Source of the DNA: Chloroflexota bacterium
GTDB lineage: Bacteria > Chloroflexota > Anaerolineae > Anaerolineales > UBA4823
Length of the DNA: 64,000 bases
Assembly (NCBI GenBank): GCA_029265355.1
Contig: JAJUJL010000011.1
Coordinates: 1 to 64,000 of the forward strand
Reading direction: 5' to 3'
Below the pieces are notes generated by a model, which saw only the letters and a program-made list of their open reading frames with translations, had not been told where the DNA came from and ran no database searches. A program made the translations under genes and the position numbers. The stretch's first letter is position 1. The number at the start of each line of letters is the position of its first letter. Below are positions 46,924 through 64,000 of this stretch, piece by piece.

Positions 46924-47056
46924 TGGTTGCCTGAATCCAGCATGCGCCCAATTAGCGCAAAGTGAGTAAAGATTGGCTGTCCGTCCCCGCGTAGCGCCTG
47001 TGACCATACCCAATACCCACCAACCAGCCCGAGAAAAGGGCTGGTCCTGGCACGCC

Positions 47057-48994: not shown

Positions 48995-49651
48995 ATGCGC
49001 ATTCTTCTTGTGGATGATCACGTGCTCTTTCGAAAAGGGGTGGCAGCCTTGCTCGCCATGAACCCAGATTTCCAGGTCGTTGGCGAGGCCGGCGACGGTC
49101 TGGAGGCGATCGCTGCCGCTCGCGAGCTGCTTCCAGATGTGGTGCTGATGGATATTGGCATGCCGCGCTGCAACGGTTTGGAAGCCACGCGCATCCTAAA
49201 GCGCGAGATGCCACACATCAAGATCGTGATTCTGACCGTTTCAGACGACGACCAGCACCTGTTCGAAGCCATCAAGAGCGGTGCTCAGGGTTACCTGCTC
49301 AAGAACCTCGAACCCTATCAGCTTCACGACCTGCTGGAAAGCATCTCACGCGGTGAAGCGCCTCTCTCAGGCGCCATCGCTGCCAGGATACTCAAGGAAT
49401 TTTCTCATCCCACTCCTGCCAGCGAGCAGGCTGCGCCATTAGTTGAAGGGTTGACCTCGCGCGAGATAGAGATTTTACAATTGGTAGTCGAGGGCCTGAC
49501 CAACAAAGAGATTGCCACTGCTTTGGTGATCTCGGAAAACACGGTCAAGATTCACCTGCGCAATATCCTCGAAAAACTGCACCTGCAGAACCGCATCCAG
49601 GCGGCTGTCTACGCCGTCCGGCAAGGCCTTATTGATGCTGACCAGCAGTAA
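48995..49651 (+). CDS. NarL/FixJ-family response regulator
   Basis: A 218-residue regulator. The receiver domain (1-120) has the acidic pair in LLVDDH, the phospho-acceptor Asp in VVLMDIGMP and the Lys in YLLKNLE. The C-terminal LuxR-type helix-turn-helix is LTSREIEILQLVVEGLTNKEIATAL...ENTVKIHLRNI. It lies 15 bases after the haem sensor kinase, its evident partner. Targets are likely the exported-enzyme genes that follow the terminator, though no binding site could be defined. Confidence 0.92.
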   Translation: MRILLVDDHVLFRKGVAALLAMNPDFQVVGEAGDGLEAIAAARELLPDVVLMDIGMPRCNGLEATRILKREMPHIKIVILTVSDDDQHLFEAIKSGAQGYLLKNLEPYQLHDLLESISRGEAPLSGAIAARILKEFSHPTPASEQAAPLVEGLTSREIEILQLVVEGLTNKEIATALVISENTVKIHLRNILEKLHLQNRIQAAVYAVRQGLIDADQQ

Positions 49652-49658
49652 ATAACCC

Positions 49659-49682
49659 GCTATAGCCCAGGTGGGCTATAGC
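49659..49682. other. Perfect hairpin after the response regulator
   Basis: GCTATAGCCC (49659-49668) pairs with GGGCTATAGC (49673-49682) around AGGT. No T-run follows. It shares the GGGCTAT core with the terminator 22 bases downstream, so the two may fold as alternatives or be remnants of one repeated element. Confidence 0.5.
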
Positions 49683-49703
49683 CAATCGATTCCATCACCC
49701 GCC

Positions 49704-49731
49704 AGGGCTATCGAAAGATAGCCCTTTTGTT
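49704..49731 (+). terminator. Rho-independent terminator of the two-component operon
   Basis: AGGGCTATC (49704-49712) and GATAGCCCT (49717-49725) pair perfectly around a stable GAAA tetraloop and run into TTTGTTT. It is a clean terminator 53 bases after the response regulator. Confidence 0.8.
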
Positions 49732-50079
49732 TATTTAAAATCACTGAGGTGAGTGTAGCCCTCGAAGGGCAATATCGATATGATGAATACGGTGCTCCGC
49801 CTCGGCGTACCATTAAATTCGGCATTCCCGTGTTCATCAACCATAATATGTACATCACAAACCAACACGGAACACCCGCCAGCCCGTCCATCGTCCACCG
49901 CAAACAGCATTGGGTTGATGTACACAACTCATGGGTTGTTTGCTTTTATTAACTGTCTCTGAATTTTTCATCCCACCTGAGGTGGCTAAGGAAAGGAGCA
50001 GCGCGAAAGAAATACACCGTAACATGACACAGCAAATGTGAAGGCAAACCAGCCATTAGGACATCTGGAGGAGGCCAAG

Positions 50080-50925
50080 ATGACAAGAGTTGAGCGAAGA
50101 GATAAAGAACCAGAACCAAACAAGGAACCCACACAATCCGGCGGAAAAATCAGCCGCCGGGAGTTCCTGGGGATGACCGGGACAGGGATTGCCGGCCTGG
50201 TGATCGGCGGCATTGTTGGACGTGAAGTCTTCCCCAAGCAGGCCGCCCCCGCAGCAGCTCCGGCAGCAGCCCCTGCAGCAGCCCCGGCAGCAGCGGGAGA
50301 AGGGGAAGCGGCCGCGGTGTCTGAGCCGAAGGCCGGCTATACGCTGGTCTTCGATCCGGTGCAATGCACCGGATGCATGAAGTGCGCCGTGGCGTGCTCA
50401 GAGAAATACGGGGCTTACTTCCACCCTGAAGAAACCAAGAACACGGTGAACCTGGAGTTTTCCAGAATCCGCCCAATGCGTTTCCAATACGTGGACGTGA
50501 TCAATAACTGCCACTATTGCGAGCTGATGGAATGGGCTGAAGGCAGCAATGAGTTCCCCTGCCAGGCTGTCTGTCCCGAAGATGCCATCCTGACCGTGCC
50601 CGAAGGCGAAGGGGAAGCCGGGTACTATGGCATGGGGTACAAGTGGATCGACCAGGAGAAGTGCCTGGGCATCGACAAGTGCTGGCGCTGCGCTGAGATC
50701 TGCGAGGACCAGTTTGCCAGCGGTATTTCCTTCGATCCCATTAGCCGCAAAGCTCAGGTTTGCAGCCGCTGCGGCGGCGACCCCGAATGTGTCAAGGCCT
50801 GCCCCGAGCCGCTGGCCTTGCAGTGGGTGCCAGTGGGACGCAATGGGCGCTTCTATGCCCAACACCCCACTGCATACGCTGAGCTGCTGTACCGCAAGAT
50901 GTACAACAAGAGGAGGGAGCTCTAA
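50080..50925 (+). CDS. Tat-exported four-cluster ferredoxin-like subunit
   Basis: A 281-residue iron-sulfur protein. A twin-arginine signal SRREFLG (~25-31) precedes a hydrophobic stretch and an Ala/Pro linker (repeated AAPAAAP). The mature part has cysteine groups for about four [4Fe-4S] clusters: CTGCMKCAVAC, CHYC...CQAVCP, CLGIDKCWRCAEIC and CSRCGGDPECVKACP. This resembles the electron-transfer subunits of DMSO-reductase-type enzymes and the small subunit of Aor-type aldehyde oxidoreductases. The ATG at 50080 follows GGAGGAGG. It overlaps the AOR gene (TAATG), so the two are almost certainly a complex. The Tat signal suggests that the complex works outside the cytoplasm. Confidence 0.88.
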   Translation: MTRVERRDKEPEPNKEPTQSGGKISRREFLGMTGTGIAGLVIGGIVGREVFPKQAAPAAAPAAAPAAAPAAAGEGEAAAVSEPKAGYTLVFDPVQCTGCMKCAVACSEKYGAYFHPEETKNTVNLEFSRIRPMRFQYVDVINNCHYCELMEWAEGSNEFPCQAVCPEDAILTVPEGEGEAGYYGMGYKWIDQEKCLGIDKCWRCAEICEDQFASGISFDPISRKAQVCSRCGGDPECVKACPEPLALQWVPVGRNGRFYAQHPTAYAELLYRKMYNKRREL

Positions 50926-52958
50926 TGGCTGACTTATTTGGAATGACCGGCAAGATTGCACGTGTAGACCTGACCAGCGGCACGGTCACTGTCATTGAGC
51001 CCCCAGAAGAAGTGTACCGCAAGTTCTTGGGCGGCTCAGCCCTGGGAGTCTACTACCTCTTCAAAGAGGGCATTGTCAGCCCTGATGTAGATCCCCTCGG
51101 CCCAGATAACATGCTCCAGTTTTTAATCGGTCCGATCACTGGTGCAGGTCCCAATGCGCGCTCAGTCACCGTTACCAAGAGCGCCTACAACTTCATTTCC
51201 ATCGCTACCAGCGGCGGCCAGGCTGCTGCCGAGCTAAAATTCGCCGGCTGGGATGGCATCCAGATCGTTGGCAAGGCCTCTAAGCCTGTCTACATCGCCG
51301 TTATCGACGATGTGGTCGAGATCCGCGACGCCAGCCATGTCTGGGGCAAAGGCGTGGAAGAAGTAGAGTTAATCCTAAAGAAGGAGGTGCTGGCGGAGAC
51401 CGAGTCGCGCGAAGCTATGATGCGCGACGCCGACCTGACTCCCGAATGGGCTGCCTTGCGCCCGGTCAAGCGCAAAGGCCTGGGTGAGAAACGCCTGGCC
51501 AGCGTCTGGTCAATCGGCCCTGGCGGCGAGAACCAGGTGTGGTATGCCAACGTGATCACCGAGGGCGCCCGCGCCCACGGTCGCTATGGTCCTGGCGCGA
51601 TCATGGGATCCAAGAATCTCAAAGCAGTCGTCATTCGTGGCACGAAAGGCCACAAACTGGCCGACAAGGCGAAATTCCTCGAGCTGGTCAATGCCATCCA
51701 TGCTTCCGAGAAAAACGACTACTTCTGGCGCTCCTATGGCACCGCCGGTATCGGCGCTCGCTCTGCCTACGTCGAAGACGCTTACCCAATTCGCAACTGG
51801 CAGTGGTGCGCCTGGGCTGATCCGCAGGTCAAGGCCATCGAAGGCGCCTTCATGGACACTGCCAGCTTCGTCCACAAGCAGGCGTGCCCCAATTGCCTGC
51901 TCAAATGCCTGACCACGGTTGAGATCACCAGTGAAGATCCCCTGATGGATGGCACCATCACTGATATGCCCGACTGGGAAGCCATGGGCATGGTTGGCGG
52001 CAACCTCGGCTACTTCGAGATGCCGGGCAAGACGCCGTCCGATCCCTTCACCGGCACCCACATCGACCAGGCCGAGAACCTGGCGAAGCTCCAATTCACC
52101 ACCGCCCTACACGACAACTATGGCCTGGATTTCATCGATGGTGGCGCCCTCCTGGCGCTGCTCATGGAATTGCGTCAGCGCGAGCTGATCACACCCGAAG
52201 ACCTGGATGGCATCGATCTAAAGTGGGGCGATGTCCACGCGGTGGATGAGATGCTGAAGAAGATCGTTTATCGCCAGGGCATCGGAGACGTGCTCGCCCG
52301 CGGCACCTGGGAGACCGCCAAGTACTTCGCCGAGAAGAAGGGCAATCCCGAGATCATGAACTACTCCATGACCGCTCATCGCTACGGGCAGCCAGCCCAC
52401 GACGTGCGCAGCCCGGCGGACAAGAACGCCATGGAGTACGTCACCGTCCGGCGCCCAAGCGAGCACACCGGCGGCGGTGGGGCTGGCTTCAAGCAGGGCG
52501 ACTGGGCTGCAGCCATCGCTGGACAGAACAACAAGTGCGCCACTGACTCGATGGTTTCCTGCTCCTTCCCTGGCGGTCACTTTGCTGGCAAGACGGTCGA
52601 TTTGATCAAAGCAGCTACCGGCTGGACTGACTTCACCGAAGAAGACCTGTTCAACATCGGCGCTCGCGAGTATGCCCTGTGCCGCCTGTTCGATATCCAT
52701 ACCCAGGGACTCACTGACCCCAAAGAGCAGTGGGATAAGCTTGTACCGCACCGCTGGTTCTACGATCCACTGCCAACTGGACCGCAGAAGGGCGCTGTCG
52801 CTTACGAAGGCAATCCGGACAAGCTCTTCAACGAAGCCCTGCCTGCTTACTGGAAAGAGCGCGGCTGGACCGAGGACAAGGGTATCCCCACCCTGGAGAC
52901 CCTCAAAGCGCTTGGCATCGATGATATCGCTGGTGAAATCGCCAAGCAGCACCTGTAG
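50925..52958 (+). CDS. Tungsten/molybdenum aldehyde:ferredoxin oxidoreductase family enzyme
   Basis: A 677-residue AOR-family catalytic subunit. The N-terminal domain (GKIARVDLTSG, KFLGGSALGVYYLF, GAGPNARSVTVTKS) binds the bis-pterin tungsten cofactor. GARAHGRYGPGAIMGSKNLKAV is the central family segment. The [4Fe-4S] cluster is held by CPNCLLKC plus a later Cys in the NKCATDSMVSC region. Substrates in the family include aldehydes, carboxylic acids and benzoyl-CoA-type rings. It has no signal of its own but overlaps the gene of a Tat-exported partner, so co-export of the folded complex is possible. A ThiF-like gene follows, as in some Aor maturation clusters. Confidence 0.9.
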   Translation: MADLFGMTGKIARVDLTSGTVTVIEPPEEVYRKFLGGSALGVYYLFKEGIVSPDVDPLGPDNMLQFLIGPITGAGPNARSVTVTKSAYNFISIATSGGQAAAELKFAGWDGIQIVGKASKPVYIAVIDDVVEIRDASHVWGKGVEEVELILKKEVLAETESREAMMRDADLTPEWAALRPVKRKGLGEKRLASVWSIGPGGENQVWYANVITEGARAHGRYGPGAIMGSKNLKAVVIRGTKGHKLADKAKFLELVNAIHASEKNDYFWRSYGTAGIGARSAYVEDAYPIRNWQWCAWADPQVKAIEGAFMDTASFVHKQACPNCLLKCLTTVEITSEDPLMDGTITDMPDWEAMGMVGGNLGYFEMPGKTPSDPFTGTHIDQAENLAKLQFTTALHDNYGLDFIDGGALLALLMELRQRELITPEDLDGIDLKWGDVHAVDEMLKKIVYRQGIGDVLARGTWETAKYFAEKKGNPEIMNYSMTAHRYGQPAHDVRSPADKNAMEYVTVRRPSEHTGGGGAGFKQGDWAAAIAGQNNKCATDSMVSCSFPGGHFAGKTVDLIKAATGWTDFTEEDLFNIGAREYALCRLFDIHTQGLTDPKEQWDKLVPHRWFYDPLPTGPQKGAVAYEGNPDKLFNEALPAYWKERGWTEDKGIPTLETLKALGIDDIAGEIAKQHL

Positions 52959-52992
52959 AGTCCTCACCGGAGGATAGCCCCTGAAGCCATGC

Positions 52993-53032
52993 TGAGGCCC
53001 CAACCGGCGGTCCCCGTCAAGTTGGGGCCTCA
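52993..53032 (+). terminator. Long hairpin between AOR and ThiF-like genes
   Basis: TGAGGCCCCAAC (52993-53004) pairs perfectly over 12 bp with GTTGGGGCCTCA (53021-53032), with a 16-nt loop. No T-run follows (CTTCTAACCC), so it may be an mRNA-stabilising or partial terminator element that lowers expression of downstream genes relative to the AOR pair. Confidence 0.5.
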
Positions 53033-53074
53033 CTTCTAACCCTCCGGAGCGAATCAATTCCCAGGACAAAGCGC

Positions 53075-53971
53075 ATGCTTTACGAGCAGTTGTTTGAGAG
53101 AAATTACGGCGTTTTTACAGAAGCGGAGCAGGCTCGCCTTCGAAACGGCCGGGTAGCCATCGTTGGGTGTGGGGGAATTGGCGCCGTCACCGCAATTGCC
53201 CTGGCGCGCAGCGGGCTGGGTCGTTTTTCGTTGCACGAATTTGACACCTACACGCCATCCAACATGAACCGCCAGATCACCTGTTTTGTCGATACGATGG
53301 GCATGAACAAGGCGGTAGTGGTTCGCGATACGATCCTGAGAATTAATCCCGAAGCGCACATTGATATTTGCACCCAGGCCGTGACGCCCCAAGAGATCGA
53401 CCAGGTTGTGTTGGATGGCGATGTCATTCTGCCCGCGGCTGACGATTGGGCCTTGAGCATGACCATGCTCAGCCGGGCCAAGCAACTCGGCAAACCCGCC
53501 ATTATGGCTTATCCGGTAGGCGCCTTGGGTCGCGTCAGCACCTTCTTGCCCACCAGCCCGTACGCCTGCGAGTGCGTGGCCATTCCGCCCCATCTCTCTT
53601 ACACCGAGATGAAAGCCTTCATGGACGACCCCAATAACCGCAAGATCTTGCAGTATTACCAGACCGCAGGCGGCTGGCGGCAAGAATGGTTTGAGCAGTG
53701 GTGCGATGGTTTGCTACCCCATCCACAGATTTGCACCATTGTCTGGATAACCGGAGCTCTCGCGGCGATAGAAATCATCAAATTGATCAGCGGCAAATGG
53801 CGACCGGTGGTTGCTCCGCGCTACTGGCACGTCACACCCGAAGGCGCACGCATCGCCAAATTCAGCTTCGCCCGCCGCTGGCTGGCTCGCCAGCGTTGGG
53901 GCGCGGCGATGATTCCCTTCTTAGCGCAGCGACCCTGGCTGGTACGCTTGTTCACCCGGGCGATCAGTTGA
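53075..53971 (+). CDS. ThiF/MoeB/HesA-family E1-like adenylyltransferase
   Basis: A 298-residue protein. The nucleotide-binding motif VAIVGCGGIGAVTAIALARSG, the FDTYTPSNMNRQ segment and the Lys of MGMNKAVVVRD define the ThiF/MoeB adenylation fold. These enzymes activate the C-terminus of small ubiquitin-like sulfur carriers such as MoaD and ThiS. The usual zinc CxxC pairs are not seen. It lies between the AOR gene and the exported redox proteins. A role in maturing the pterin cofactor of this AOR is likely, but a MoaD-like partner is not encoded in the window. Confidence 0.82.
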   Translation: MLYEQLFERNYGVFTEAEQARLRNGRVAIVGCGGIGAVTAIALARSGLGRFSLHEFDTYTPSNMNRQITCFVDTMGMNKAVVVRDTILRINPEAHIDICTQAVTPQEIDQVVLDGDVILPAADDWALSMTMLSRAKQLGKPAIMAYPVGALGRVSTFLPTSPYACECVAIPPHLSYTEMKAFMDDPNNRKILQYYQTAGGWRQEWFEQWCDGLLPHPQICTIVWITGALAAIEIIKLISGKWRPVVAPRYWHVTPEGARIAKFSFARRWLARQRWGAAMIPFLAQRPWLVRLFTRAIS

Positions 53972-54084
53972 TGCACATGTGCAATGGTCGTTGTGGGCTA
54001 TAAGAAGACACCATCCTGGGCTAAACAAAGGATTTGGTTTCCACATGCGCTGCCTCAGGATGATACATCAAACAAGGAGAACTT

Positions 54085-54594
54085 ATGAAGCGTTGGATGA
54101 CTGGCGTTAACCTGTTGGGCTTCTTAGCAGGCTTAATCATGATTACTGCCATGCTCATCCCCTGGTGGAGCTTTCAGCTTGAATTTTCCGAACAGACCGA
54201 CCTTTACCCCTACCTTCTGGATGGTCCGGGCAGCGAGTTCGTTGGTTACAAGCGCAGTCCACAGATGACCATCTTGACGGTTGTGTTCGTGATCACCATC
54301 TTGCTCACGTTGATCGGTAGTTTTCAAAAAGGGCGCGCTGCTCGTGTCTTATTGTTGCTTTCTGGAGCGCTGATTTTCTTGGGCACCTGGCGTTTGCTCC
54401 TGCGTATTTCGGATGTGGCGGCGCGCTTCGGCCTTCCCATTCAGGGACATACCCGGGGCAATTATGGTGGTTTTGCCGACGTTTATGTTTCTACCTGGCT
54501 TCGCCCAGGGATGTATCTCATCCTTTTTGCAGGCATCCTGGTGCTGTGCGCGGGATTATTTCGAGATAAAGCCTGGTTACAGTTCAAGGATTAA
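54085..54594 (+). CDS. Four-helix membrane protein, unknown
   Basis: A 169-residue protein, not recognised. Helices at about 8-28, 61-78, 85-103 and 141-160 enclose an extracytoplasmic loop at ~30-58 and a second loop containing YGGFADVYVSTWLRPGM. It has a GGAG-type site and sits between the ThiF-like gene and the haem lipoprotein. Because reductive dehalogenases usually need a small membrane anchor (RdhB), this protein is a possible functional equivalent. It shows no sequence signature of RdhB, and that idea is inference. Confidence 0.55.
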   Translation: MKRWMTGVNLLGFLAGLIMITAMLIPWWSFQLEFSEQTDLYPYLLDGPGSEFVGYKRSPQMTILTVVFVITILLTLIGSFQKGRAARVLLLLSGALIFLGTWRLLLRISDVAARFGLPIQGHTRGNYGGFADVYVSTWLRPGMYLILFAGILVLCAGLFRDKAWLQFKD

Positions 54595-54633
54595 GCTGTA
54601 TCCATCAAAGATCTTGAGAAAAGGAGGATAGCT

Positions 54634-54933
54634 ATGAAAGTGCGTTATCTGGTACTCACGATGCTGATGATCGTCATTGCTCTTTCAATGCTCGGTTGTG
54701 GCGCAGCCGCCGCGCCTGAGCCGACACCCACTGCAACTCCCCATCCCGGCGAAGCGCTGACCGCCAGCCGCTGCGGCACCTGCCATCCCCTTGGCCTGGT
54801 GGAAAACTCCAAATTCAGTGCGCAAGGCTGGCAGATCGTTGTCGAACGCATGGTCATGGCCGGTGCGCAACTCAACAAAGAGCAACAAGCCCAGGTGATC
54901 GACTACCTGGCGGTCAAATATCCCAAGGATTAG
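54634..54933 (+). CDS. Monohaem c-type cytochrome lipoprotein
   Basis: A 99-residue exported protein. The lipobox is LSMLGC (Cys ~22), followed by a Pro/Thr linker and a small class-I-like cytochrome with CGTCH as haem site. Met residues in MVMAGAQL could give the sixth ligand. It would be tethered to the outer face of the membrane. It lies 10 bases before the reductive-dehalogenase-like gene and 39 after the four-helix protein, so it is a plausible electron shuttle for one of the exported enzymes. Confidence 0.82.
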   Translation: MKVRYLVLTMLMIVIALSMLGCGAAAAPEPTPTATPHPGEALTASRCGTCHPLGLVENSKFSAQGWQIVVERMVMAGAQLNKEQQAQVIDYLAVKYPKD

Positions 54934-54943
54934 CGCTTATCCT

Positions 54944-56407
54944 ATGACGAAGCCCGAGAAACAAGAAATCAACGACTTAGTCGACGAGCTTCGGCAGGGG
55001 CGGATCAGTCGTAAGGATTTTCTGCGCACCGCGGCATTGCTTGGGCTATCTTTGGGAGCCGGCCAGGTTTTATCTGGCTGCGCGCCAACAGAGGGAGCCA
55101 CGGCTACCCCCACGTTTGACCTTCGCGCCCTCTCGTTGGAAGAAAATAACGCCTTTCCCACCCCTATCGGGGCTGAAGTCATGGCGCCTTCGCCAGTGCC
55201 TGGCTACAGCGCCACGCCTGCAGTCGATTATTCCGCTCGCCCAACTGCGCCTCCCCCGCGCAATTTGAGCTGGTTTTGCGCTTCGTGCGGGCAGCGGTTC
55301 CGCACTGCAGAGGAATTACAGCGTCACGCCGCCGAGAAGCATCAATGGCTGCTGCCCGAGGTTCACCGCGTCGAAGAACCCACTTACACCGATTTTCTGG
55401 TGGGCAAGATCGAGCGCTTCGACGAGCGGAACACCGTCTTTTCGCGCACTTTGTGGGATGAGGACTACCAGGCGCAGGTGAAAGCGGCGACTGCCAAAGC
55501 CAAGCCAGGTGATTGGAGCTCTTTTGAGGGCAACGCTGTGGTTGCTGGCGCAATCTACGTCGACAACACCGCTGGCGCCCTGCACCCCAACTATTACGGC
55601 TACGGTGGGCATCTGAGCGGCGACGCGGGCTTGTTTGGATGGGATGACCCGGTCAATGAGACGCGATTTCCAGTCGAAGACCCGCTTTGGATGACCGAAC
55701 GCGTCAAGCAGGTCGCTCGCTTGTATGGCGCCAACCTGGTGGGCGTCACCGAGGTCAACCCGAACTGGATCTACTCCCACTACTTCGAGCGCCCAACCTT
55801 GAACTACGGCAAGCTGGAAATGCCTCTGAAATACGCCATTGTCATGGGCATCGAAATGGATTGGGATTGGATCAAACATTCTCCCTATCCGGAAGCCAGC
55901 GCTGCCACCGCCCTGGCATACTCCCGCATGGCGGAGCTGTCCTCCTCCCTGGCAAAATACATTCGCGCCCTGGGATACCCCGCCATCCCATCCGGCAACG
56001 ATACGGCTCAGAGCATTCCCCTGGCGATCGATGCCGGCCTGGGAGAGCTTGGGCGCCTTGGGTTGTTGCTGAGCCCGGAATATGGTCCGCGACAGCGCCT
56101 CTGCAAAGTTTTCACAGATCTCCCTCTGGTGCCCGACAAGCCCATCGATTTCGGAATCCAGCGATACTGTGAGAAATGCCATGCCTGCGCCCAGGCCTGC
56201 CCGGTGAATGCTATCCGCTGGGAGGAGCGCACCACCGAACCTACTTCTATTTCCAACCGCACCGGCATTCTGCGCTGGCCGGTCAATGTTGCCAAGTGTT
56301 ACCTTTTTTGGAGGGAGAACCGCGGCACCGATTGCTCGAACTGCATCGCCGCTTGCCCCTGGGCGATTCAGAACCCGCGTACCTGGATTGAAAGAGAGAC
56401 CTGGTAG
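54944..56407 (+). CDS. Reductive-dehalogenase-like lipoprotein with a C2H2 zinc-finger insert
   Basis: A 487-residue protein. The N-terminus has a Tat-like signal with an imperfect pair (SRKDFLR) and a lipobox LSGC (C46). Residues 112-133 contain a perfect C2H2 spacing: C112, C115, H128, H133. Residues ~160-400 correspond to the cobamide-binding core of RdhA/QueG-type enzymes. The two [4Fe-4S] motifs at the end are CEKCHACAQACP and the RdhA-typical C-YLFW...CSNCIAACPW. Known relatives remove halogens from organohalides using electrons from the membrane. Whether this divergent member does so is uncertain. Neighbouring NuoEF and polyferredoxin genes suggest an electron supply. Confidence 0.8.
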   Translation: MTKPEKQEINDLVDELRQGRISRKDFLRTAALLGLSLGAGQVLSGCAPTEGATATPTFDLRALSLEENNAFPTPIGAEVMAPSPVPGYSATPAVDYSARPTAPPPRNLSWFCASCGQRFRTAEELQRHAAEKHQWLLPEVHRVEEPTYTDFLVGKIERFDERNTVFSRTLWDEDYQAQVKAATAKAKPGDWSSFEGNAVVAGAIYVDNTAGALHPNYYGYGGHLSGDAGLFGWDDPVNETRFPVEDPLWMTERVKQVARLYGANLVGVTEVNPNWIYSHYFERPTLNYGKLEMPLKYAIVMGIEMDWDWIKHSPYPEASAATALAYSRMAELSSSLAKYIRALGYPAIPSGNDTAQSIPLAIDAGLGELGRLGLLLSPEYGPRQRLCKVFTDLPLVPDKPIDFGIQRYCEKCHACAQACPVNAIRWEERTTEPTSISNRTGILRWPVNVAKCYLFWRENRGTDCSNCIAACPWAIQNPRTWIERETW

Positions 56408-56447
56408 GCGCGTCTTTTATCTTGTCGAATGAAAGGAATGCAAACAC

Positions 56448-56930
56448 ATGGAAGTTGACATCAAGAAAATCGATGCGATCCTTGAAGAACACGGCCTGGA
56501 AAAAAGATGGCTGATCCCTTCCTTGCTGGCGATCCAGAATACCTACAACTACCTGCCCCCGGAAGCCATGCAGCGGGTTTCAGAGCGAATGCAAGTGCCC
56601 ATGATCCAGGTGTACCAGGTAGCTTCATTCTACAAAGCCTTCAGCATGGAGCCGCGCGGCAAACACATTGTCACGGTCTGCATGGGAACTGCCTGCCACG
56701 TGCGCGGCGCTGAGCGCCTGGTGGATCAGGTTGGGCGGGTGATTGGCATCAAGCCAGGAGAGACCAGCACGGATTACCAGTTCACCCTGGAAACGGTCAA
56801 CTGCCTGGGCACGTGCGCTTTGGGACCTGTAATGGTCGTCGACGGCAAGTATTATGGCAATATGAATGCCAGCAAGGTTGACCGAGTGCTCAACCGATAC
56901 ATGAAGCGGGAGGGAGAAGCTCATGGCTAA
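56448..56930 (+). CDS. NuoE-like [2Fe-2S] subunit
   Basis: A 160-residue thioredoxin-fold ferredoxin of the 24-kDa NADH dehydrogenase family. Helical N-terminus LIPSLLAIQNTYNYLP, then Cys ligands in VCMGTACHVRG and CLGTCALGPVMVV. It pairs with NuoF as the NADH-oxidising head of complex I, NAD-linked formate dehydrogenases and electron-bifurcating hydrogenases. Its stop overlaps the nuoF start by eight bases. No complex I membrane subunits are nearby, so this is a stand-alone diaphorase module. Confidence 0.9.
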   Translation: MEVDIKKIDAILEEHGLEKRWLIPSLLAIQNTYNYLPPEAMQRVSERMQVPMIQVYQVASFYKAFSMEPRGKHIVTVCMGTACHVRGAERLVDQVGRVIGIKPGETSTDYQFTLETVNCLGTCALGPVMVVDGKYYGNMNASKVDRVLNRYMKREGEAHG

Positions 56931-58776
56931 ACCATTACCCACTGAGGCTCAAGAACTTGAAAAACGCCGCCAGGAGCTTCAAAATCAGCCCTCCCGGCCT
57001 GCCATCCGCATCTGCGGCGGTACGGGCTGCCTGGCGCTGGGCTCCGATGAGGTCGCAGCAGCATTTGAGACTGCGCTCAACGAGCAGGGTGTGGAAGCAA
57101 ATATCGAACTTAAAACGACCGGTTGTCCTGGCTTCTGCGAACAAGGACCGCTACTGGTCATCCACCCCCACCGAATTCTCTACACCCACGTCAAACCGAA
57201 AGACGCCGCCGAGATTGTCGCCAAGACAGTAGTGAAAGGTGAGATCATTGAGCGGTTGCTGTATGAAGATCCACGAACAGGCGAACGAATCGCTCATGAA
57301 CAAGAGGTTCCCTTCTACAAACTGCAAAAGCGCATCTTGCTGAAAGATAGCGGCGTCATCGATCCACGCAAACTTGAGGACTACCTGGCTGTGGGAGGAT
57401 ATCGCGCCTTGCACAAAGCGCTCTTCGAGATGAGTCCTGAGGATATCATCGAGGAGGTCAAGAAGTCTGGCTTGAGAGGGCGCGGTGGAGCGGGTTTCCC
57501 CACCGCAGTGAAGTGGGAGCTGTGCCGAAAGTCTCCGGGTAAGCCCAAGTACATCATCTGCAACGCAGATGAAGGCGACCCCGGGGCGTTCCAGGATCGC
57601 GGCTTGATCGAGGGCAACCCGCACAGCATCCTGGAAGGCATGATCATCGGCGCCTACGCTATCGGTGCGGAAGAAGGTTTCGTATACATTCGCAACGAAT
57701 ATCCTCTGGCGGTCGAGCTGATCAGCCTGGCGGTGAAGCAGGCGAAGGAGGCCGGCCTGCTCGGCAAGAATATCCTCGGCTCAGGTTTTGACTTCGATAT
57801 CACCATCCAATTGGGAGCTGGGGCTTTTGTGTGCGGTGAAGAAACCGCGCTGATGGCGTCCATCGAAGGCCGTCCAGGCGAACCGCACGCCCGCCCTCCC
57901 TATCCGGCTGAGAGTGGACTGTGGGGCAAGCCAACCAATATCAACAACACCAAGACCTGGGCGTGGGTGCCGCATATCGTCAAGAACGGCGGCGATTGGT
58001 TTGCGCAGATGGGCACAGAAAAGAGCAAGGGCACCACGATTTTCTCGGTGGTTGGCAAGATCAAGAACACCGGCCTTGTAGAAGTGCCCATGGGAATCAG
58101 CCTGCGAAGCCTGATCGAGGACATCGGTGGCGGCGCATCCAATGGCAAGAAACTTAAGGCCGTGCAGACCGGCGGGCCTTCTGGCGGCTGCATTCCTGAG
58201 AGCTTGTGGCACTTACCAGTAGACTATGACAGCTTGAAAGAAGCTGGCTCAATGATGGGCTCTGGCGGCATGATTGTCATGGATGAACGCACCTGCATGG
58301 TTGATATGGCACGCTACTTCCTGAACTTCTCCAAGTTCGAGTCTTGTGGGAAATGCGTTGCCTGCCGTGAGGGTGTGCGCCGGATGTATGAGATTTTGGA
58401 CTACATCACACGCGGCTATGGGCAAGAAGGGGATATCGAGCTGCTCGAAGAGATGGGCGAAGCGATCAAAATCGGTGCGTTGTGCGGATTGGGCCAAACC
58501 GCTCCAAACCCGGTGTTAACCACCATCCGTTACTTCCGGGAAGAGTATGAAGCCCATATCCGAGAGAAAAAGTGCCCGGCAGGTGTGTGCAAATCCCTGA
58601 TCACCTACTACATCGTGGCCGAGAACTGTCCGGGGTGTGGGTTGTGCGCGCGCTACTGCGCAGAGCACGCCATCACCGGAGAGAAGGGGAAGCCCTATGT
58701 CATCGACCCGCAAATCTGCGGTCGCTGCGGGGTGTGTATGGATGTGTGCAATTTCAATGCGGTTGTCGTGGAATAG
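56923..58776 (+). CDS. NuoF-like NADH-binding flavoprotein with extra ferredoxin domain
   Basis: A 617-residue subunit. It opens with a second thioredoxin-like [2Fe-2S] domain (~20-115; CGGTGC and GCPGFC). The 51-kDa core follows: GRGGAGFPTAVKWELC for FMN/NADH, NADEGDPGAFQDR, GAGAFVCGEETAL and an SLBB region. The [4Fe-4S] site is SCGKCVACREG with a later LCGLG. The C-terminal ~60 residues are a two-cluster ferredoxin (CPGCGLCARYC, CGRCGVCMDVC). This layout equals HydB/HndC-type subunits of NAD(P)-linked hydrogenases and bifurcating enzymes. It would take electrons from NADH and pass them to the next gene product. Confidence 0.92.
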   Translation: MAKPLPTEAQELEKRRQELQNQPSRPAIRICGGTGCLALGSDEVAAAFETALNEQGVEANIELKTTGCPGFCEQGPLLVIHPHRILYTHVKPKDAAEIVAKTVVKGEIIERLLYEDPRTGERIAHEQEVPFYKLQKRILLKDSGVIDPRKLEDYLAVGGYRALHKALFEMSPEDIIEEVKKSGLRGRGGAGFPTAVKWELCRKSPGKPKYIICNADEGDPGAFQDRGLIEGNPHSILEGMIIGAYAIGAEEGFVYIRNEYPLAVELISLAVKQAKEAGLLGKNILGSGFDFDITIQLGAGAFVCGEETALMASIEGRPGEPHARPPYPAESGLWGKPTNINNTKTWAWVPHIVKNGGDWFAQMGTEKSKGTTIFSVVGKIKNTGLVEVPMGISLRSLIEDIGGGASNGKKLKAVQTGGPSGGCIPESLWHLPVDYDSLKEAGSMMGSGGMIVMDERTCMVDMARYFLNFSKFESCGKCVACREGVRRMYEILDYITRGYGQEGDIELLEEMGEAIKIGALCGLGQTAPNPVLTTIRYFREEYEAHIREKKCPAGVCKSLITYYIVAENCPGCGLCARYCAEHAITGEKGKPYVIDPQICGRCGVCMDVCNFNAVVVE

Positions 58777-58788
58777 GGAGCATAAACT

Positions 58789-60804
58789 ATGGTAAACCTG
58801 ACAATCAACGAGAAAACGATCTCTGTTCCCGAGGGCACCACGGTCCTTGAAGCAGCTCAAAAAGCCGGGGTGTATATTCCTACGCTGTGCCACCGCCCTG
58901 AGTTGACCCCTTATGGCGCCTGCCGCCTGTGCCTAGTGGAGATCAGCCGCAATGGGAATGGGCGTAAAACCGTGACCACTTCGTGCAACATGATCGCTGA
59001 AGAGGGCATGAGCATCGCCACCGACACACCGGAGGTCGTGAGCACCCGTAAGTTGATGGCCGACCTGATACTGTCTCGCTGTCCCGAAGTGCCCGCTATC
59101 CAACGCCTGGCAGCTTCATTGGGTGTGGATAAGCCCAGCTTCCCCACCGATCATCCGGAAGAAGACTGCATCTTATGCGGACTGTGCGTGCGCGCCTGCG
59201 ATGAGAAAGCGAACCAGCACCTGCTTGGGCTGGTAGGGCGAGCTCCTGACCGCAAGCTGACCACTGCCTTTGGTCAAGACCCGGGCATCTGCGATGACTG
59301 CAACCAGTGCATCGAGTACTGCCCCACCGGCGCGATCACCCACCTGCCTGTGCCCAAGATCGGAGAGCGTCTTAAAGCCATCGCCACCCGCTGGAAGCGA
59401 GCCCGCCAGGTGGTGCAATATGCCGCTCTGCTGCTCTTCCTGGGCTTGATCTACAGCACGCTGCGAGGTGAGCTGCAAATCGTGCCGATCAATCTCTTCT
59501 CGCGGCTCAACCCGCTGCAGGCAGTGGCAGCCATGATCGGTGGACGAGAGTTCATCGGCAACTACTGGCCCGTGCTGTTGACCATCGCCGTCACCCTGCT
59601 CTTTGGGCGGGTGTGGTGCGGATGGTTCTGCCCCCTGGGGGCCGTGCTGGAGCTGTTTGGCCGGGTTGGGCGTGTCTTTCGCTGGCAGGGCTTCCGCCAG
59701 CTCAAGTATGTCATCTTGTTCACCGTGTTGGTGATGGCGGCTTTTGGCAGCCTGGCTTACCTGTATTTCGAACCCATCACCATCTTCGTGCGCGGACTGA
59801 CCGCTATCGCCAAGCCCGCCTTGGAGTACCTCGCCCTGGAAGACAAGGCAGAATTTGCTCTGCCAGGGGCTTCCTGGTGGCTGATCGCCCTGCCGTTTGT
59901 GCTCGTCTTGCTTCTGAACATCGTTGAACGGCGCTTCTGGTGTCGCTACCTGTGCCCGCTAGGCGCACTAGTCGGCCTGGCTTCCAAGTTCTCCTGGGTG
60001 AAGCGCTTCGTCAATCAGAAAAGCTGCGTCAAATGCGGCGAGTGCGCCAGCCTGTGCACTATGGGCGCCATCAGCGATAAGCGCGACTTTACCAGCGATC
60101 CGGCAGAATGCATCATGTGCATGGATTGCGCCGCGCCTTGCCCCAAAGCAGCCATCACCTTCCCGCGCGGCAAGCTGGTGAGTTGGAATAACGAGTTCGA
60201 TCCCACCCGCCGCGAAGCCCTGGCTACCCTGGGCATCGGTGCAATATCGCTCGGCCTCCTGGCGCTGGATGTTGGCAAGGTCAAGGCCGCCAAAGCCAGC
60301 GTTTTACGTCCGCCTGGCGCTCAATCAGAAGACTTCCTGTCTAAGTGCATCCGTTGCGACCAATGCATCGCAGTCTGCCCCAAGAAGGCACTGGTGCCAG
60401 ATTCGCTGGATGGCGGTTGGGATTCGCTGTGGACGCCAAAATTCGACCCATTCAGCGGCGGTTGCGATTACGAGTGCAACCGCTGCGGGCAGGTTTGCCC
60501 CAGCGGCGCTATCCCACCATTGAGCTTGGAAGAAAAGCGCAAGGCGGTTATCGGCACGGCCCAGGTGAACTTCGAAACCTGCGTGCGCTGCATGGATTGC
60601 CTGCAATATTGTCCTTACGAGTGCTTCGAAGAGGTTGAAGTGGAAGGGCTGCGCGGCGTGTTCCCAAAAGTTAAGCCCGAAGGGTGCGTCGGCTGCGGCA
60701 TCTGTGTTGAAGTTTGCCCGGAGCAGGAAGAGCGTGCGATCGTGGTCTACCCTGTCGATTCAGTTCCAGTAGACCGCTACATCACACACCCTGTTGTTGA
60801 CTAG
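58789..60804 (+). CDS. NuoG-NapH-NapG fusion: transmembrane polyferredoxin
   Basis: A 671-residue fusion. Residues 1-185 are a NuoG/HoxU-like head: [2Fe-2S] ligands C34, C45, C48, C66, then two [4Fe-4S] groups (C127-C137, C168-C178). Residues ~205-390 are a NapH/CcoG-type membrane domain with four helices and the paired CxxxCP motifs (C277/C281, C385/C389). Two [4Fe-4S] groups follow (C413-C423, C441-C451). RREAL (474-478) before a fifth hydrophobic stretch looks like an internal Tat-type anchor. Four more [4Fe-4S] groups form a NapG-like tail (C520-C530, C559-C570, C598-C608, C633-C643). One [2Fe-2S] and eight [4Fe-4S] clusters could carry electrons from NuoEF through the membrane. Confidence 0.9.
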   Translation: MVNLTINEKTISVPEGTTVLEAAQKAGVYIPTLCHRPELTPYGACRLCLVEISRNGNGRKTVTTSCNMIAEEGMSIATDTPEVVSTRKLMADLILSRCPEVPAIQRLAASLGVDKPSFPTDHPEEDCILCGLCVRACDEKANQHLLGLVGRAPDRKLTTAFGQDPGICDDCNQCIEYCPTGAITHLPVPKIGERLKAIATRWKRARQVVQYAALLLFLGLIYSTLRGELQIVPINLFSRLNPLQAVAAMIGGREFIGNYWPVLLTIAVTLLFGRVWCGWFCPLGAVLELFGRVGRVFRWQGFRQLKYVILFTVLVMAAFGSLAYLYFEPITIFVRGLTAIAKPALEYLALEDKAEFALPGASWWLIALPFVLVLLLNIVERRFWCRYLCPLGALVGLASKFSWVKRFVNQKSCVKCGECASLCTMGAISDKRDFTSDPAECIMCMDCAAPCPKAAITFPRGKLVSWNNEFDPTRREALATLGIGAISLGLLALDVGKVKAAKASVLRPPGAQSEDFLSKCIRCDQCIAVCPKKALVPDSLDGGWDSLWTPKFDPFSGGCDYECNRCGQVCPSGAIPPLSLEEKRKAVIGTAQVNFETCVRCMDCLQYCPYECFEEVEVEGLRGVFPKVKPEGCVGCGICVEVCPEQEERAIVVYPVDSVPVDRYITHPVVD

Positions 60805-60922
60805 CCCCGAGTGGAGGTCAGGAGCGCTGAGATGGTGAATTTCCCGGCGCTCCTGACCACTGCTACACAGTACGCCAGCTGGCGATCACGGTCGGGTCCA
60901 CCGAGGGGAAGGAGCACAGATC

Positions 60923-61261
60923 GTGAAAAGAATATTCGTTTTATCCCGTCAGTCCATGTTTGGGCAGGGGATCAAAGCGCTGCTTTCAATGGAAGATGAT
61001 ATTGAGATTGTCAGCCCATCTGCCAGCATCGAAGAAGCCGTCCAATGCATCCAATCCTGCCAACCCGACTTCGTCATCCTCAACTGCGACGATCCAGAGC
61101 CGGATATCAACTCCGCCGCCCTGTGCATCTTGCGCGAAAGGCTGGGCATCTCCTTGATCAGCATCAGCCTGCAGGACAATTCGATCTGCATCCACCGCGG
61201 CGAGCGGAAGCAGGTGCGCCAACTCGAAGATTTGTTAGAAGCTATCTATGCAGAAAAGTAA
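60923..61261 (+). CDS. Degenerate receiver-domain protein
   Basis: A 112-residue stand-alone domain whose start (GTG, behind AGGGGAAGGAG) and pattern follow NarL-type receivers, comparable to the regulator at 48995. The acidic pair of the first strand is replaced by Ser-Arg (FVLSRQSMFGQGI). The phospho-acceptor Asp is replaced by Asn (FVILNCDD). It cannot be phosphorylated in the usual way, and there is no DNA-binding domain. It may bind a partner constitutively or sense something else. It overlaps the lipoprotein gene downstream by 14 bases. The 118-base gap before it has only weak symmetry. Confidence 0.65.
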   Translation: MKRIFVLSRQSMFGQGIKALLSMEDDIEIVSPSASIEEAVQCIQSCQPDFVILNCDDPEPDINSAALCILRERLGISLISISLQDNSICIHRGERKQVRQLEDLLEAIYAEK

Positions 61262-61694
61262 ACGGCTGATTGCCTATCTGGTTGTCGTGCTCTCAATTCT
61301 GAGCGGGTGTTCAAGCAAGCCAGGCGATACACCTACACCGCAAGCTGCACCCAGCCCTACCTCCGATCAGGCGTTTGCAGAACAGCAGGAAGACACCTTT
61401 GAAGTCGTTGCCTGGGTGGATAACCCCACCCCGGCGAAAGGGGAAATCGTAAACCTGTCCGGGAGCCTGATCAAGAACGGTGTTTACCTGGGAGGCATGA
61501 TGATGTATGCGACCTGGCCCGATAAAGATCAGGAGCGCGGCGTGCCCAACTGCAAAGTGCTGGTGATCTACCAGCGCGGCGTGTGTATGATCAAAACGGA
61601 CGATTTCACTTCAGGTGAATATGTTCCCGTTAAGGTGAAGTTTATATACAACGACCGGTCATACAGCGGAGAGACCGGGTTCACCATCAAGTAG
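61248..61694 (+). CDS. Exported lipoprotein, unknown
   Basis: A 148-residue protein, family not recognised. A short signal with lipobox LSGC (Cys ~21) is followed by a Pro/Thr/Ser linker and a ~95-residue beta-rich domain (FEVVAWVDNPTPAKGEIVNL, GGMMMYATWPDK, VPVKVKFIYNDRSYSGET). The fold may be immunoglobulin-like, with two cysteines (NCKVLV, GVCMIK) that could form a disulfide. It lies between the degenerate receiver, which it overlaps, and tatA. Confidence 0.7.
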   Translation: MQKSKRLIAYLVVVLSILSGCSSKPGDTPTPQAAPSPTSDQAFAEQQEDTFEVVAWVDNPTPAKGEIVNLSGSLIKNGVYLGGMMMYATWPDKDQERGVPNCKVLVIYQRGVCMIKTDDFTSGEYVPVKVKFIYNDRSYSGETGFTIK

Positions 61695-61753
61695 CGAAGC
61701 AAATCATTGACGAGGACTACAGAGCCATTTTTGGAAACTGCAGGAGAGTAACT

Positions 61754-61912
61754 ATGCCACACCTGGGTCCGACGGAACTGATCATTATCCTGGTTATCAT
61801 CATCATCCTGTTCGGTATCGGCAGGATTGAAAAAATTGGCGGAGAGCTTGGCGCTGCAATTCGTGCTTTTCGAGAAGGGATTCGCAGCGAAGAAAAAGCT
61901 GGAGAAGAATAA
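61754..61912 (+). CDS. tatA: TatA-family protein translocase subunit
   Basis: A 52-residue protein. One N-terminal helix (ELIIILVIIIILFGIGRI) is followed by the hinge and amphipathic helix KIGGELGAAIRAFREGI and a short acidic/lysine tail. This is the classic TatA layout, although the usual FGP hinge reads FGIGRI. TatA oligomers form the pore that exports folded, cofactor-loaded proteins with twin-arginine signals. GCAGGAGAG precedes the ATG. It is encoded among Tat-dependent redox proteins and next to a molybdopterin synthesis gene, so it probably serves them. No tatC is in the window. Confidence 0.88.
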   Translation: MPHLGPTELIIILVIIIILFGIGRIEKIGGELGAAIRAFREGIRSEEKAGEE

Positions 61913-61958
61913 TCATTTATCGAATGGCAGGGTCATCAGCACACGGAAAAGTGACATC

Positions 61959-62957
61959 TTGACGACACTCATCGATAGCTTTGGTCGACAAATTGATTAT
62001 CTCAGGATTTCGGTGACCGATCGGTGCAACCTGCGCTGTGTCTACTGCATGCCAGCAGAAGATGTCCATTGGATTCCGCGCGAAGATCTATTGACCCTAG
62101 ATGAAATCCTGCGCGTTGTTGAGGCGGGCGCAAAGGTTGGACTGAGCAAGGTCCGTTTAACCGGCGGCGAACCATTGGTGCACCCAGATATCCTCGACCT
62201 GGTGAATGGCATCTCCAGGCTGGAGGGCATTGAAGATGTGAGCCTGACCACCAATGGCATGTTGCTCGAGAGGCTGGCTCCTCGCCTGGCTGAAGCCGGT
62301 CTGAAGCGGGTGAATGTCAGCCTGGACACGCTTCAACCAGAAAAATTCAAAAAGATAACCCGCTTTGGCAACCTCTCTCGCGTGCTGGCAGGCATTCATG
62401 CCGCTGAACAATCCGGGATGCTGCCGGTAAAATTGAATGCGGTGATCGTCAAAGGCGTCAATGATGATGAGCTGATCGATTTTGCCCAACTTACTGTGGA
62501 ACATGCCTGGCACGTGCGTTTTATCGAGCTGATGCCAATCGGCAACGAGGGCAACTGGGGAACTGGATTCCCATCGCACGGGCAGCGCTATTATTCTGTA
62601 CAGGAAATGCAAGCCAGGCTGGCGCCTCTGGGTATCCTGCCCACAAGCTCGCCGGTGGGAAATGGTCCAGCGCGCAGCTATACCATCCCAGGCGCATTGG
62701 GAACGATTGGCTTCATTTCTCCTCTGGGCGACCATTTCTGCCAGTCCTGCAACCGCCTGCGACTGACCGCCGATGGTCACCTGCGCCCATGTCTGTTCTC
62801 TCGCGATGAAGTCTCGGTGCGCGAAGCCCTGCCATCTGGCGCAGGTATGATCGACCTGCTACAAACTGCCGTGGCTTTGAAGCCTGCTGGGCACCACCTG
62901 GAACTCTCCGCTCTGACTTCCAATTCAAACCGCATCATGTGCCAGATCGGCGGATAA
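61959..62957 (+). CDS. moaA: GTP 3',8-cyclase MoaA (molybdopterin synthesis)
   Basis: A 332-residue radical-SAM enzyme that starts molybdenum/tungsten cofactor synthesis by cyclising GTP. The SAM cluster motif is CNLRCVYC, followed by the SAM-binding RLTGGEPLVHPD. The second [4Fe-4S] cluster uses CQSCNRLRLTADGHLRPCL. The essential C-terminal GG is present (MCQIGG). The frame is open from 61827, inside tatA, but homologous sequence begins at LTTLIDSFGRQIDYLR, so I take the TTG at 61959, giving the normal family length. Its place behind tatA and the AOR operon suggests it supplies the pterin for the exported enzyme. Confidence 0.92.
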   Translation: MTTLIDSFGRQIDYLRISVTDRCNLRCVYCMPAEDVHWIPREDLLTLDEILRVVEAGAKVGLSKVRLTGGEPLVHPDILDLVNGISRLEGIEDVSLTTNGMLLERLAPRLAEAGLKRVNVSLDTLQPEKFKKITRFGNLSRVLAGIHAAEQSGMLPVKLNAVIVKGVNDDELIDFAQLTVEHAWHVRFIELMPIGNEGNWGTGFPSHGQRYYSVQEMQARLAPLGILPTSSPVGNGPARSYTIPGALGTIGFISPLGDHFCQSCNRLRLTADGHLRPCLFSRDEVSVREALPSGAGMIDLLQTAVALKPAGHHLELSALTSNSNRIMCQIGG

Positions 62958-63072
62958 GTTTTTTCGACTGGTTCTGGTTCAGGGGCTGTAAATTTCAAGG
63001 CAACACTTCGCAGCCGCGCTTTTGTTTCCTGGACCACAAACGATGTATAATTCTTTTGTTAGGAGAAATACA

Positions 63073-64000
63073 ATGGATTTGGACACACCACCCGTCCGCT
63101 GGCAGGCGATCGTTGCCCGTTATGCTGTGCCGGATACCTGGCGCAGCATCTGGCAGATCATCAATTCAACCGTATCCTTTATCGCACTCTGGGTGCTGAT
63201 GGTTTACAGCCTGCGCTTCGACTACTGGCTGACCCTGCTGCTGGCCTTCCCCGCGGCTGGCTTCATGGTGCGCATGTTTATCATCTTCCACGATTGCTGC
63301 CACGGCTCGTTCTTTAAATCCCGGCGAGCCAATGCGGTTGTAGGAAATATCCTGGGCGTGCTCACCCTCACCCCCTTCGATCATTGGAAGCACAGCCACG
63401 CCGTCCATCACGCCACAGCCGGCGACCTGGATCGGCGCGGCACCGGCGATGTGCTCACCCTCACCTTGAAAGAATACCTGGCTCTGCCCTGGTACAAGAA
63501 GCTTGGCTACCGCATCATGCGCAACCCGCTCATCCTGTTCACCATCGGTTCATTGCTTGTCTTCGTGGTCACCCACCGCTTTTACTCACCCAAATCCGGC
63601 AAACGTGAGAAAGCCAGCGTGCTATGGACCAACCTGGCCCTGGCGGCTCTGGTAGCCCTGCTGTGCTGGCTGGTCGGGTGGCAGGCCTTCCTGCTGGTGG
63701 AACTGCCCATCCTGTTTATCGCCTGCTCCGCCGGCGTGTGGCTGTTTTATGTGCAGCACAATTTTGACCAGACCTACTGGGAGCGCCACGAGAAATGGGA
63801 GTTTTTCAAAGCGGGTATGAACGGCAGCTCATTCTACAAACTTCCAGCAGTGCTGAACTGGTTCACCGGCAACATCGGCTACCACCACATCCATCATCTA
63901 GGCCCGCGCATCCCCAACTACAAGCTGCCCCATGCATACAAAGAAAACCCCATCTTCCACGTGCGCCCGCTCACCATCCCCCTGAGCCTGAAATCGCTGG
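63073..64000 (+). CDS. Fatty acid desaturase, truncated by window end
   Basis: At least 309 residues with no stop before the window ends. The three di-iron histidine boxes are present: HDCCH, HSHAVHH and HHIHH, set among hydrophobic segments (~30-85 and ~175-225). This is the membrane acyl-lipid desaturase family that introduces cis double bonds in fatty acyl chains using O2. The ATG at 63073 follows AGGAGA. It is unrelated in function to the redox island and suggests at least some contact with oxygen. Confidence 0.9.
   Translation, partial: MDLDTPPVRWQAIVARYAVPDTWRSIWQIINSTVSFIALWVLMVYSLRFDYWLTLLLAFPAAGFMVRMFIIFHDCCHGSFFKSRRANAVVGNILGVLTLTPFDHWKHSHAVHHATAGDLDRRGTGDVLTLTLKEYLALPWYKKLGYRIMRNPLILFTIGSLLVFVVTHRFYSPKSGKREKASVLWTNLALAALVALLCWLVGWQAFLLVELPILFIACSAGVWLFYVQHNFDQTYWERHEKWEFFKAGMNGSSFYKLPAVLNWFTGNIGYHHIHHLGPRIPNYKLPHAYKENPIFHVRPLTIPLSLKSL

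Follow-up and report, generated by a model that had tools for sequence, protein, structure and literature searches.

Among the described systems closest to the locus reported here, the Class IV WOR is represented by AmWOR1 of Acetomicrobium mobile (PDB 9mqx; WorLSABC) and is described without export, while Class V, which includes YdhV/YdhY and CsWOR41, is defined by a Tat signal on WorS and has an external WorSL and a membrane link but no BfuABC module (PMC13328260). BfuABC attached to a membrane complex occurs in Mbh-Bfu and Nuo-Bfu, which end at a membrane hydrogenase or a quinone site, an external third substrate being undescribed (PMC9304861); known Bfu enzymes have their third substrate in the cytoplasm or the membrane, and none is external in the Bfu and WOR surveys. 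Polytopic polyferredoxins are dual Sec/Tat proteins, with an Anaerolinea thermolimosa member among those listed, that combine four Sec helices, a twin-arginine (RR), a fifth segment (TM5) and four tail clusters, seven [4Fe-4S] clusters altogether, with neither a ferredoxin head nor a BfuBC partner (PMC5449189). In RdhC/PceC and NosR, four helices form a module with a pair of CxxxCP motifs, for which a role in serving exported redox enzymes has been proposed; these proteins also have an FMN domain and lack a head that faces NAD(H)/ferredoxin (PMC5928378). How exported reductive dehalogenases (RDHs) are supplied with low-potential electrons is an open question in the literature, as a corrinoid at -350 to -370 mV is beyond the reach of menaquinol (-74 mV).

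We analysed a window of 64,000 nucleotides, positions 1 to 64,000 of contig JAJUJL010000011.1, in a Chloroflexota genome (GCA_029265355.1). One operon-like region of it encodes, in co-directional order, WorS, WorL, ThiF, four-helix protein, haem lipoprotein, RDH homologue, BfuC and BfuB, followed by a single-chain fusion protein:

50038-50925, plus strand: WorS-like protein of 295 aa with a Tat signal, its 16 Cys being expected to bind four [4Fe-4S]; SRREFLGMTGTGIAGLVIGGIVG
50925-52958, plus strand: WorL, tungsten/molybdenum pterin oxidoreductase of the aldehyde:ferredoxin oxidoreductase family, 677 aa (AFOR_N and AFOR_C)
53075-53971, plus strand: ThiF/MoeB-type adenylyltransferase (PF00899, E 5e-38)
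54085-54594, plus strand: putative four-helix membrane protein, shared by most fusion loci and by the headless loci L113 and L115
54634-54933, plus strand: small mono-haem c-type lipoprotein (CGTCH; NF052246, SorB-like, 1.5e-8)
54944-56407, plus strand: reductive-dehalogenase homologue with a Tat-like signal and lipobox (TIGR02486, 3.7e-58, over cut-off)
56448-56930, plus strand: BfuC, NuoE-like [2Fe-2S] subunit in the WorC position (PF01257, 1e-50)
56923-58776, plus strand: BfuB, NuoF-like FMN subunit in the WorB position (7t2r_B, 806 bits; B2 ligands)
58789-60804, plus strand: fusion of a BfuA/WorA head, NapH-type membrane domain, internal RR/TM5 and NapG-type tail
58789-59358, plus strand: head, residues 1-190, Type 2 BfuA with one [2Fe-2S] and two [4Fe-4S] (9mqx_A, Z 19.2)
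59359-60198, plus strand: NapH-type membrane domain (residues 191-470) that carries both CxxxCP motifs plus two [4Fe-4S] (TIGR02163, 1.5e-27)
60208-60294, plus strand: internal twin-arginine and predicted TM5, residues 474-502 (RR conservation, insertion score)
60346-60720, plus strand: NapG-type tail clusters, residues 520-643, four [4Fe-4S] (TIGR00397, 4e-16)

The locus resembles Class IV in keeping five subunits together, in its WorA-type head, in the B2 ligands of BfuB and, once the inserted genes are left out, in its S-L-C-B-A type 1 gene order. It differs in the Tat signal of WorS, in the fusion of WorA to a membrane polyferredoxin, in the unrelated genes between L and C, and in a WorL that belongs to other lineages. 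With Class V it shares the Tat-bearing WorS, a predicted external WorSL and a membrane link; WorL and YdhV (clade 41) are at most 27% identical, with a long branch. The single modules are all known, and their combination is absent from both surveys: the Bfu survey mentions no NapH, polyferredoxin or dehalogenase (PMC9304861), and the WOR survey no Chloroflexota, polyferredoxin or dehalogenase (PMC13328260). The open-licence literature yielded no pertinent match for a NuoEF-NapGH fusion.

The fusion protein and its occurrence

The fusion is read from an uninterrupted frame of 671 aa that opens with ATG, 12 bp after the NuoF-like gene and with a ribosome-binding-like AGGGAG 5' of the start. Pfam places Fer2_4 at residues 1-80, Fer4 pairs at 127-184, two copies of Fer4_5 (CxxxCP), and further Fer4 pairs from about residue 410 and in the tail. 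The 42 Cys include, by motif, one [2Fe-2S] set (C34, 45, 48, 66) and two [4Fe-4S] sets (C127-178) in the head, four Cys in the two CxxxCP motifs (C277/281 and C385/389), two [4Fe-4S] motifs (C413-451) ahead of the internal RR (R474-R475) and its helix, and four more in the tail (C520-643). The sequence-only reading, which had described one frame with a ferredoxin head, a NapH domain with two CxxxCP motifs, an RR plus helix and a four-cluster tail, agrees with both the Pfam matches and the Cys motifs, and its count of one [2Fe-2S] and up to eight [4Fe-4S] is right provided that the CxxxCP motifs are left out, as they are in our own count of eight. Its complex-I-type head holds as a ferredoxin head but not as NuoG proper (TIGR01973, 90.8 bits where the cut-off is 470.05). 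The NapH and NapG models likewise score below their NCBIfam cut-offs (TIGR02163, 96.7 against 213 bits; TIGR00397, 59.2 against 178.9 bits). AlphaFold2 returned a mean pLDDT of 79 for the whole chain and 84.9 for the membrane domain modelled alone. An Rfam scan of 49000-64000 gave zero matches, and promoter and terminator scans gave scores not above those of shuffles.

The same reading had called for a survey of genomes for the fusion and its neighbours and had named assembly error as a possible explanation. Counting the window's own, the fusion lies on 14 contigs: eight full or near-full copies at 50-77% identity on separate public contigs (L009-L016), all from Chloroflexota metagenome-assembled genomes (MAGs), and five more (L074-L078) among 298 genomes of the class. 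Assembly error is therefore rejected, as 13 other contigs carry the same fusion. Under a strict limit, 400 genomes drawn from the phylum contained no fusion except the window's own, and it was absent from the plasmids searched. Across 13 aligned fused proteins the cluster Cys are all identical except C416 (Trp in L074 and L076-L078), and 24 headless relatives retain every membrane and tail Cys with one exception, again at C416; the 16 tail Cys are invariant in both sets. Within one subgroup, this column holds Trp (CxxWGxC) in the headed L074 and L076-L078 and Cys in the headless L079-L081; the Trp is an inner-side change that goes with the head.

Variants of the arrangement were also observed. 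At L014 (8171-11974), BfuB and the fusion share a 1267-aa frame from which the first 17 head residues are gone; this could be a true fusion or a local assembly error, a deletion. At L116 (3636-8176), a 495-aa head-NapH protein with no RR or tail lies 3' of a 1017-aa NuoF-like protein and, to judge from its sequence, should not reach the outside. A second kind of head fusion occurs at L117 (8077-9558), where a BfuA-type head is joined to the C-terminal domain of a thiamine-pyrophosphate enzyme, next to a NuoE-like gene and apparent subunits of a 2-oxoacid oxidoreductase.

Membrane domain and side of the tail

In the polytopic polyferredoxin Q1NSB0 of strain MLMS-1, a headless relative of our protein, reporter fusions showed that the part after TM5 is translocated by Tat, the hand-over signal being the weak hydrophobicity of TM5 together with the positive charges behind it (Tooke et al, 2017; PMC5449189). 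The NapH-NapG part of the fusion belongs to that family, with a single chain, an RR directly before TM5 and four tail clusters, and the Anaerolinea thermolimosa member belongs to the species that provides locus L030 of our relative set. The internal RR is present in 37 of 37 tail-bearing rows of the alignment, the sole row that lacks it being the tail-less L082. On a rough scale, in most rows, comprising the window protein and its relatives, insertion scores are poorest for TM5 among the five segments, and basic residues predominate on the predicted inner loops of the same proteins. The window's genome encodes TatC. An outside tail, as implied by the passage of electrons to exported enzymes in the sequence-only reading, is thus supported by the reporter fusions in Q1NSB0, the conserved RR, the weak TM5, the charge bias and the exported partner enzymes encoded alongside, and we regard Tat-dependent export of the tail as the supported prediction. 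The opposite topology, in which the internal RR is unused and both ends stay inside as parts of an all-cytoplasmic ferredoxin machine, leaves unexplained the RR of every tail-bearing row, the weak TM5, the charge bias and the Tat-exported reporter fusions of the relative, and we consider it highly improbable.

Searches against the PDB gave no sequence match that covers the membrane domain beyond its ferredoxin part and no match by fold at E <= 0.001, and the fusion has no recognisable redox cofactor that would sit halfway across the membrane. In the literature, CxxxCP mutation in NapH destabilised the complex, and the iron content of NosR argued against a cluster at this motif; by analogy, the CxxxCP motifs of the fusion may hold no cluster. 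As the domain has neither a recognisable mid-membrane cofactor nor a solved relative, a direct wire through it is something we infer.

Inner and outer partners

Genes of the NuoE and NuoF type directly 5' of the fusion, as noted from the sequence earlier, agree with the gene content found here, but the plain complex-I character then given to them does not hold. BfuB has an N-terminal [2Fe-2S] domain, an FMN domain and a C-terminal domain for two [4Fe-4S] according to Pfam, with Cys invariant in seven homologues, and matches BfuB of the NiFe-Bfu hydrogenase over its full length with 806 bits (7t2r_B) and subunit B of AmWOR1 with 754 bits (9mqx_B), compared with at most 403 bits for NuoF of complex I. 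Its residues C458, T496, H545, C551 and C556 align to the NiFe-Bfu B2 ligands C438, C476, H525, C531 and C536. These five ligands were described by Schut et al (2022), who reported the His to be absent from non-bifurcating homologues and Thr to be the common form at the second position, present in two thirds (PMC9304861). Bit scores and B2 ligands together rule out plain complex I; at the level of sequence, BfuB and BfuC form a core with every mark of electron bifurcation. The inner end should therefore use NAD(H) and ferredoxin rather than NADH alone, with ferredoxin as co-substrate and flow possible both ways.

The head points to the same type of enzyme. Both by sequence and by predicted fold, its nearest solved relative is 9mqx_A, subunit A (WorA) of the electron-bifurcating tungsten aldehyde oxidoreductase AmWOR1 (39% identity; Z 19.2, rmsd 3.4 over 175 residues; next structure, Z 17.1). 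Twelve invariant ligand Cys fit Type 2 BfuA, with clusters A1, A2 and A4 only and with A3 and A5 absent; this type has three clusters, like the head (PMC9304861). The head has no extra conserved Cys set, C98 being present in 10 of 13 sequences.

On the outer side, WorS has its best solved relative in the Fe-S subunit of an aldehyde oxidoreductase (8c0z_C), and its stop overlaps the start of WorL. The Tat signal occurs in every complete WorS copy that was read, and the RR and at least 16 Cys recur in relatives from two WOR lineages. WorL aligns with 1aor and 9mqx_D and retains the active-site Glu and His; the cluster Cys are retained in the window lineage. Given the Tat signal of WorS, catalytic WorSL should be outside, and WorL, which has no signal of its own, would have to be carried by WorS. 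WorSL is present at all fusion loci where the region is readable. At L016 and L109 the WorL belongs to a separate lineage, 28-29% identical to that of the window and again accompanied by a Tat-WorS; the L016 protein is closest to WOR5 of the PDB. The RDH homologue (E 1.7e-55 to PceA, 4uqu) adjoins BfuC in most loci and is missing from L016 and L109. Its Y326 and R385, equivalent to PceA Y246 and R305, and all its cluster Cys recur without exception in the 14 homologues compared; its signal has RR in most homologues and RK in the window. The sequence-only reading, in which electrons from NADH pass through the membrane to exported enzymes, is borne out as to exported partners, namely Tat-WorS and the RDH homologue, and not as to NADH alone, in view of the bifurcation marks of BfuBC.

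A ThiF/MoeB-type gene lies in most complete fusion loci, and its product probably serves pterin-cofactor or sulfur-carrier maturation. The four-helix protein (54085-54594) has no match in either Pfam or NCBIfam. The haem lipoprotein is optional, being found at L011-L014, with a weak relative at L109, and missing from several loci. 5' of WorS, a sensor kinase (46973-48979; HAMP, GAF, HisKA_3) whose sensor part has two CxxCH haem motifs (CQQCH and CWTCH) is followed by a NarL-type regulator (48995-49651). This pair probably controls the operon; a kinase-like tail and a regulator likewise lie 5' of WorS at L010 and L011. A receiver-only response-regulator protein (60923-61261) follows the fusion, and at L016 (13090-14439) a receiver-only response regulator and MoaA share one frame. 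L016 also encodes, near its Tat-WorS and WorL, a thiamine-pyrophosphate enzyme of the acetolactate-synthase type (895-2943) with an RR signal-like N-terminus (NRRDFLKASAIAGSLALIAS). The RDH homologue of the window (54944-56407) contains a C2H2-zinc-finger-like stretch, CASCGQRFRTAEELQRHAAEKH, both Cys of which are invariant in the 14 homologues.

Electron flow, quinones and the headless sisters

On balance, we think that the locus is probably a membrane-spanning relative of the bifurcating tungsten enzymes with its third substrate outside the cell, and we count in its favour that two WorL lineages only 28% identical are both paired with the fusion and a Tat-WorS. In this system, one FMN inside the cell would be the site where BfuC and BfuB trade electrons with NAD(H) and ferredoxin, and from there the electrons would pass to the fusion head, of the BfuA/WorA type, with its [2Fe-2S] and two [4Fe-4S]. 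The NapH-type part would anchor the chain and hold a further pair of [4Fe-4S] at the inner face; TM5, which Tat would insert, would lead to four [4Fe-4S] outside, where they would contact the Tat-exported WorS/WorL and, where present, the exported RDH homologue. With inward flow, WorSL would oxidise an external aldehyde-type substrate and the electrons would be split between ferredoxin and NAD+; with outward flow, NADH and reduced ferredoxin would send electrons of about -400 mV to the RDH homologue through the same parts. We lean slightly towards inward flow as the main direction within this reading, since WorSL, rather than the RDH, recurs throughout and the head derives from the aldehyde-oxidising type; the chance of outward flow to the RDH homologue is almost as high. 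What the sequences show are the domains, their conservation, the gene content and the export signals; that the products form a complex, how electrons cross the membrane, in which direction they flow and what the substrates are is what we infer.

A narrower reading takes the outward direction as the only one: the fusion and BfuBC would be a dedicated low-potential donor to the RDH, in a quinone-free respiration of the organohalide type, and WorSL a separate enzyme of the same pathway. The potential of about -400 mV proposed for a Bfu core supplied with NADH and ferredoxin would suit the corrinoid step at -350 to -370 mV, the active-site residues of the RDH are kept in 14 homologues and its gene adjoins BfuC in most loci. 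However, L016 and L109 combine the fusion with WorSL and no RDH, and WorSL is found at all readable loci, which makes an exclusively outward role improbable.

Quinones bear on the membrane domain, as NapH-type modules have been proposed in the literature as quinol oxidases. The domain might trade electrons with menaquinol as in NapGH, so that the whole would be an NADH/ferredoxin:quinone or a quinol-assisted enzyme that also serves WorSL and the RDH. Complex I and a MenA over cut-off are both encoded in the genome of the window, which is 98% complete, so that a quinone link is possible, and the headless sisters described below, which have no BfuABC at the locus, would need another partner at their inner end. 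Against this, MqnC was not found in the window's genome and MenB and MenD scored below cut-off only, while three other fusion genomes (G106, G082 and G126) show no complex I 49-kDa subunit and none of MenD, MqnC and MenA over cut-off, which makes a quinone-free role plausible, within the limits of a small set of markers and of incomplete MAGs that may hide genes. We consider the quinone-coupled enzyme rather unlikely. The step without quinone that the sequence-only reading had proposed, extended to NADH/ferredoxin electrons, is plausible but unproven. Its strongest form, a direct and quinone-free transmembrane bifurcation in which one polypeptide would wire the external tungsten enzyme and the RDH to cytoplasmic NAD(H)/ferredoxin, is a tentative proposal that we rate below an even chance.

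When a tree is built on the NapHG part, three headless proteins fall together with all 14 fused ones in a single group with 99/98 support. The tree needs at least three changes of head state, which implies that the head was lost and/or gained repeatedly. At L113 and L115, the two headless loci that are readable, WorS-WorL, the four-helix protein and the RDH are retained, the polyferredoxin gene lies directly 3' of the RDH, and no NuoE/F genes intervene; elsewhere in the genome, no close BfuB was found for L113 and one was found on another contig for L115. In fused relatives from these genera, the fusion is flanked by NuoE/F-like genes or, at the least, by BfuB. Head and BfuBC are thus gained or lost jointly at the locus, with the outer module retained, which supports the division into an inner and an outer part in the favoured reading, and the occurrence of headed and headless versions in one genus is a natural test of the role of the head.

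If correct, the membrane-spanning arrangement would be a compact route for low-potential electrons across the membrane, in or out of the cell, and would bear on how such electrons get to exported reductive dehalogenases. It is also a possible electron partner for unexplained exported tungsten enzymes of the Class V type. Should the direct wire prove true, the energy coupling of Bfu enzymes would reach a substrate outside the cell, and an external dehalogenase would receive electrons of about -400 mV without a quinone.
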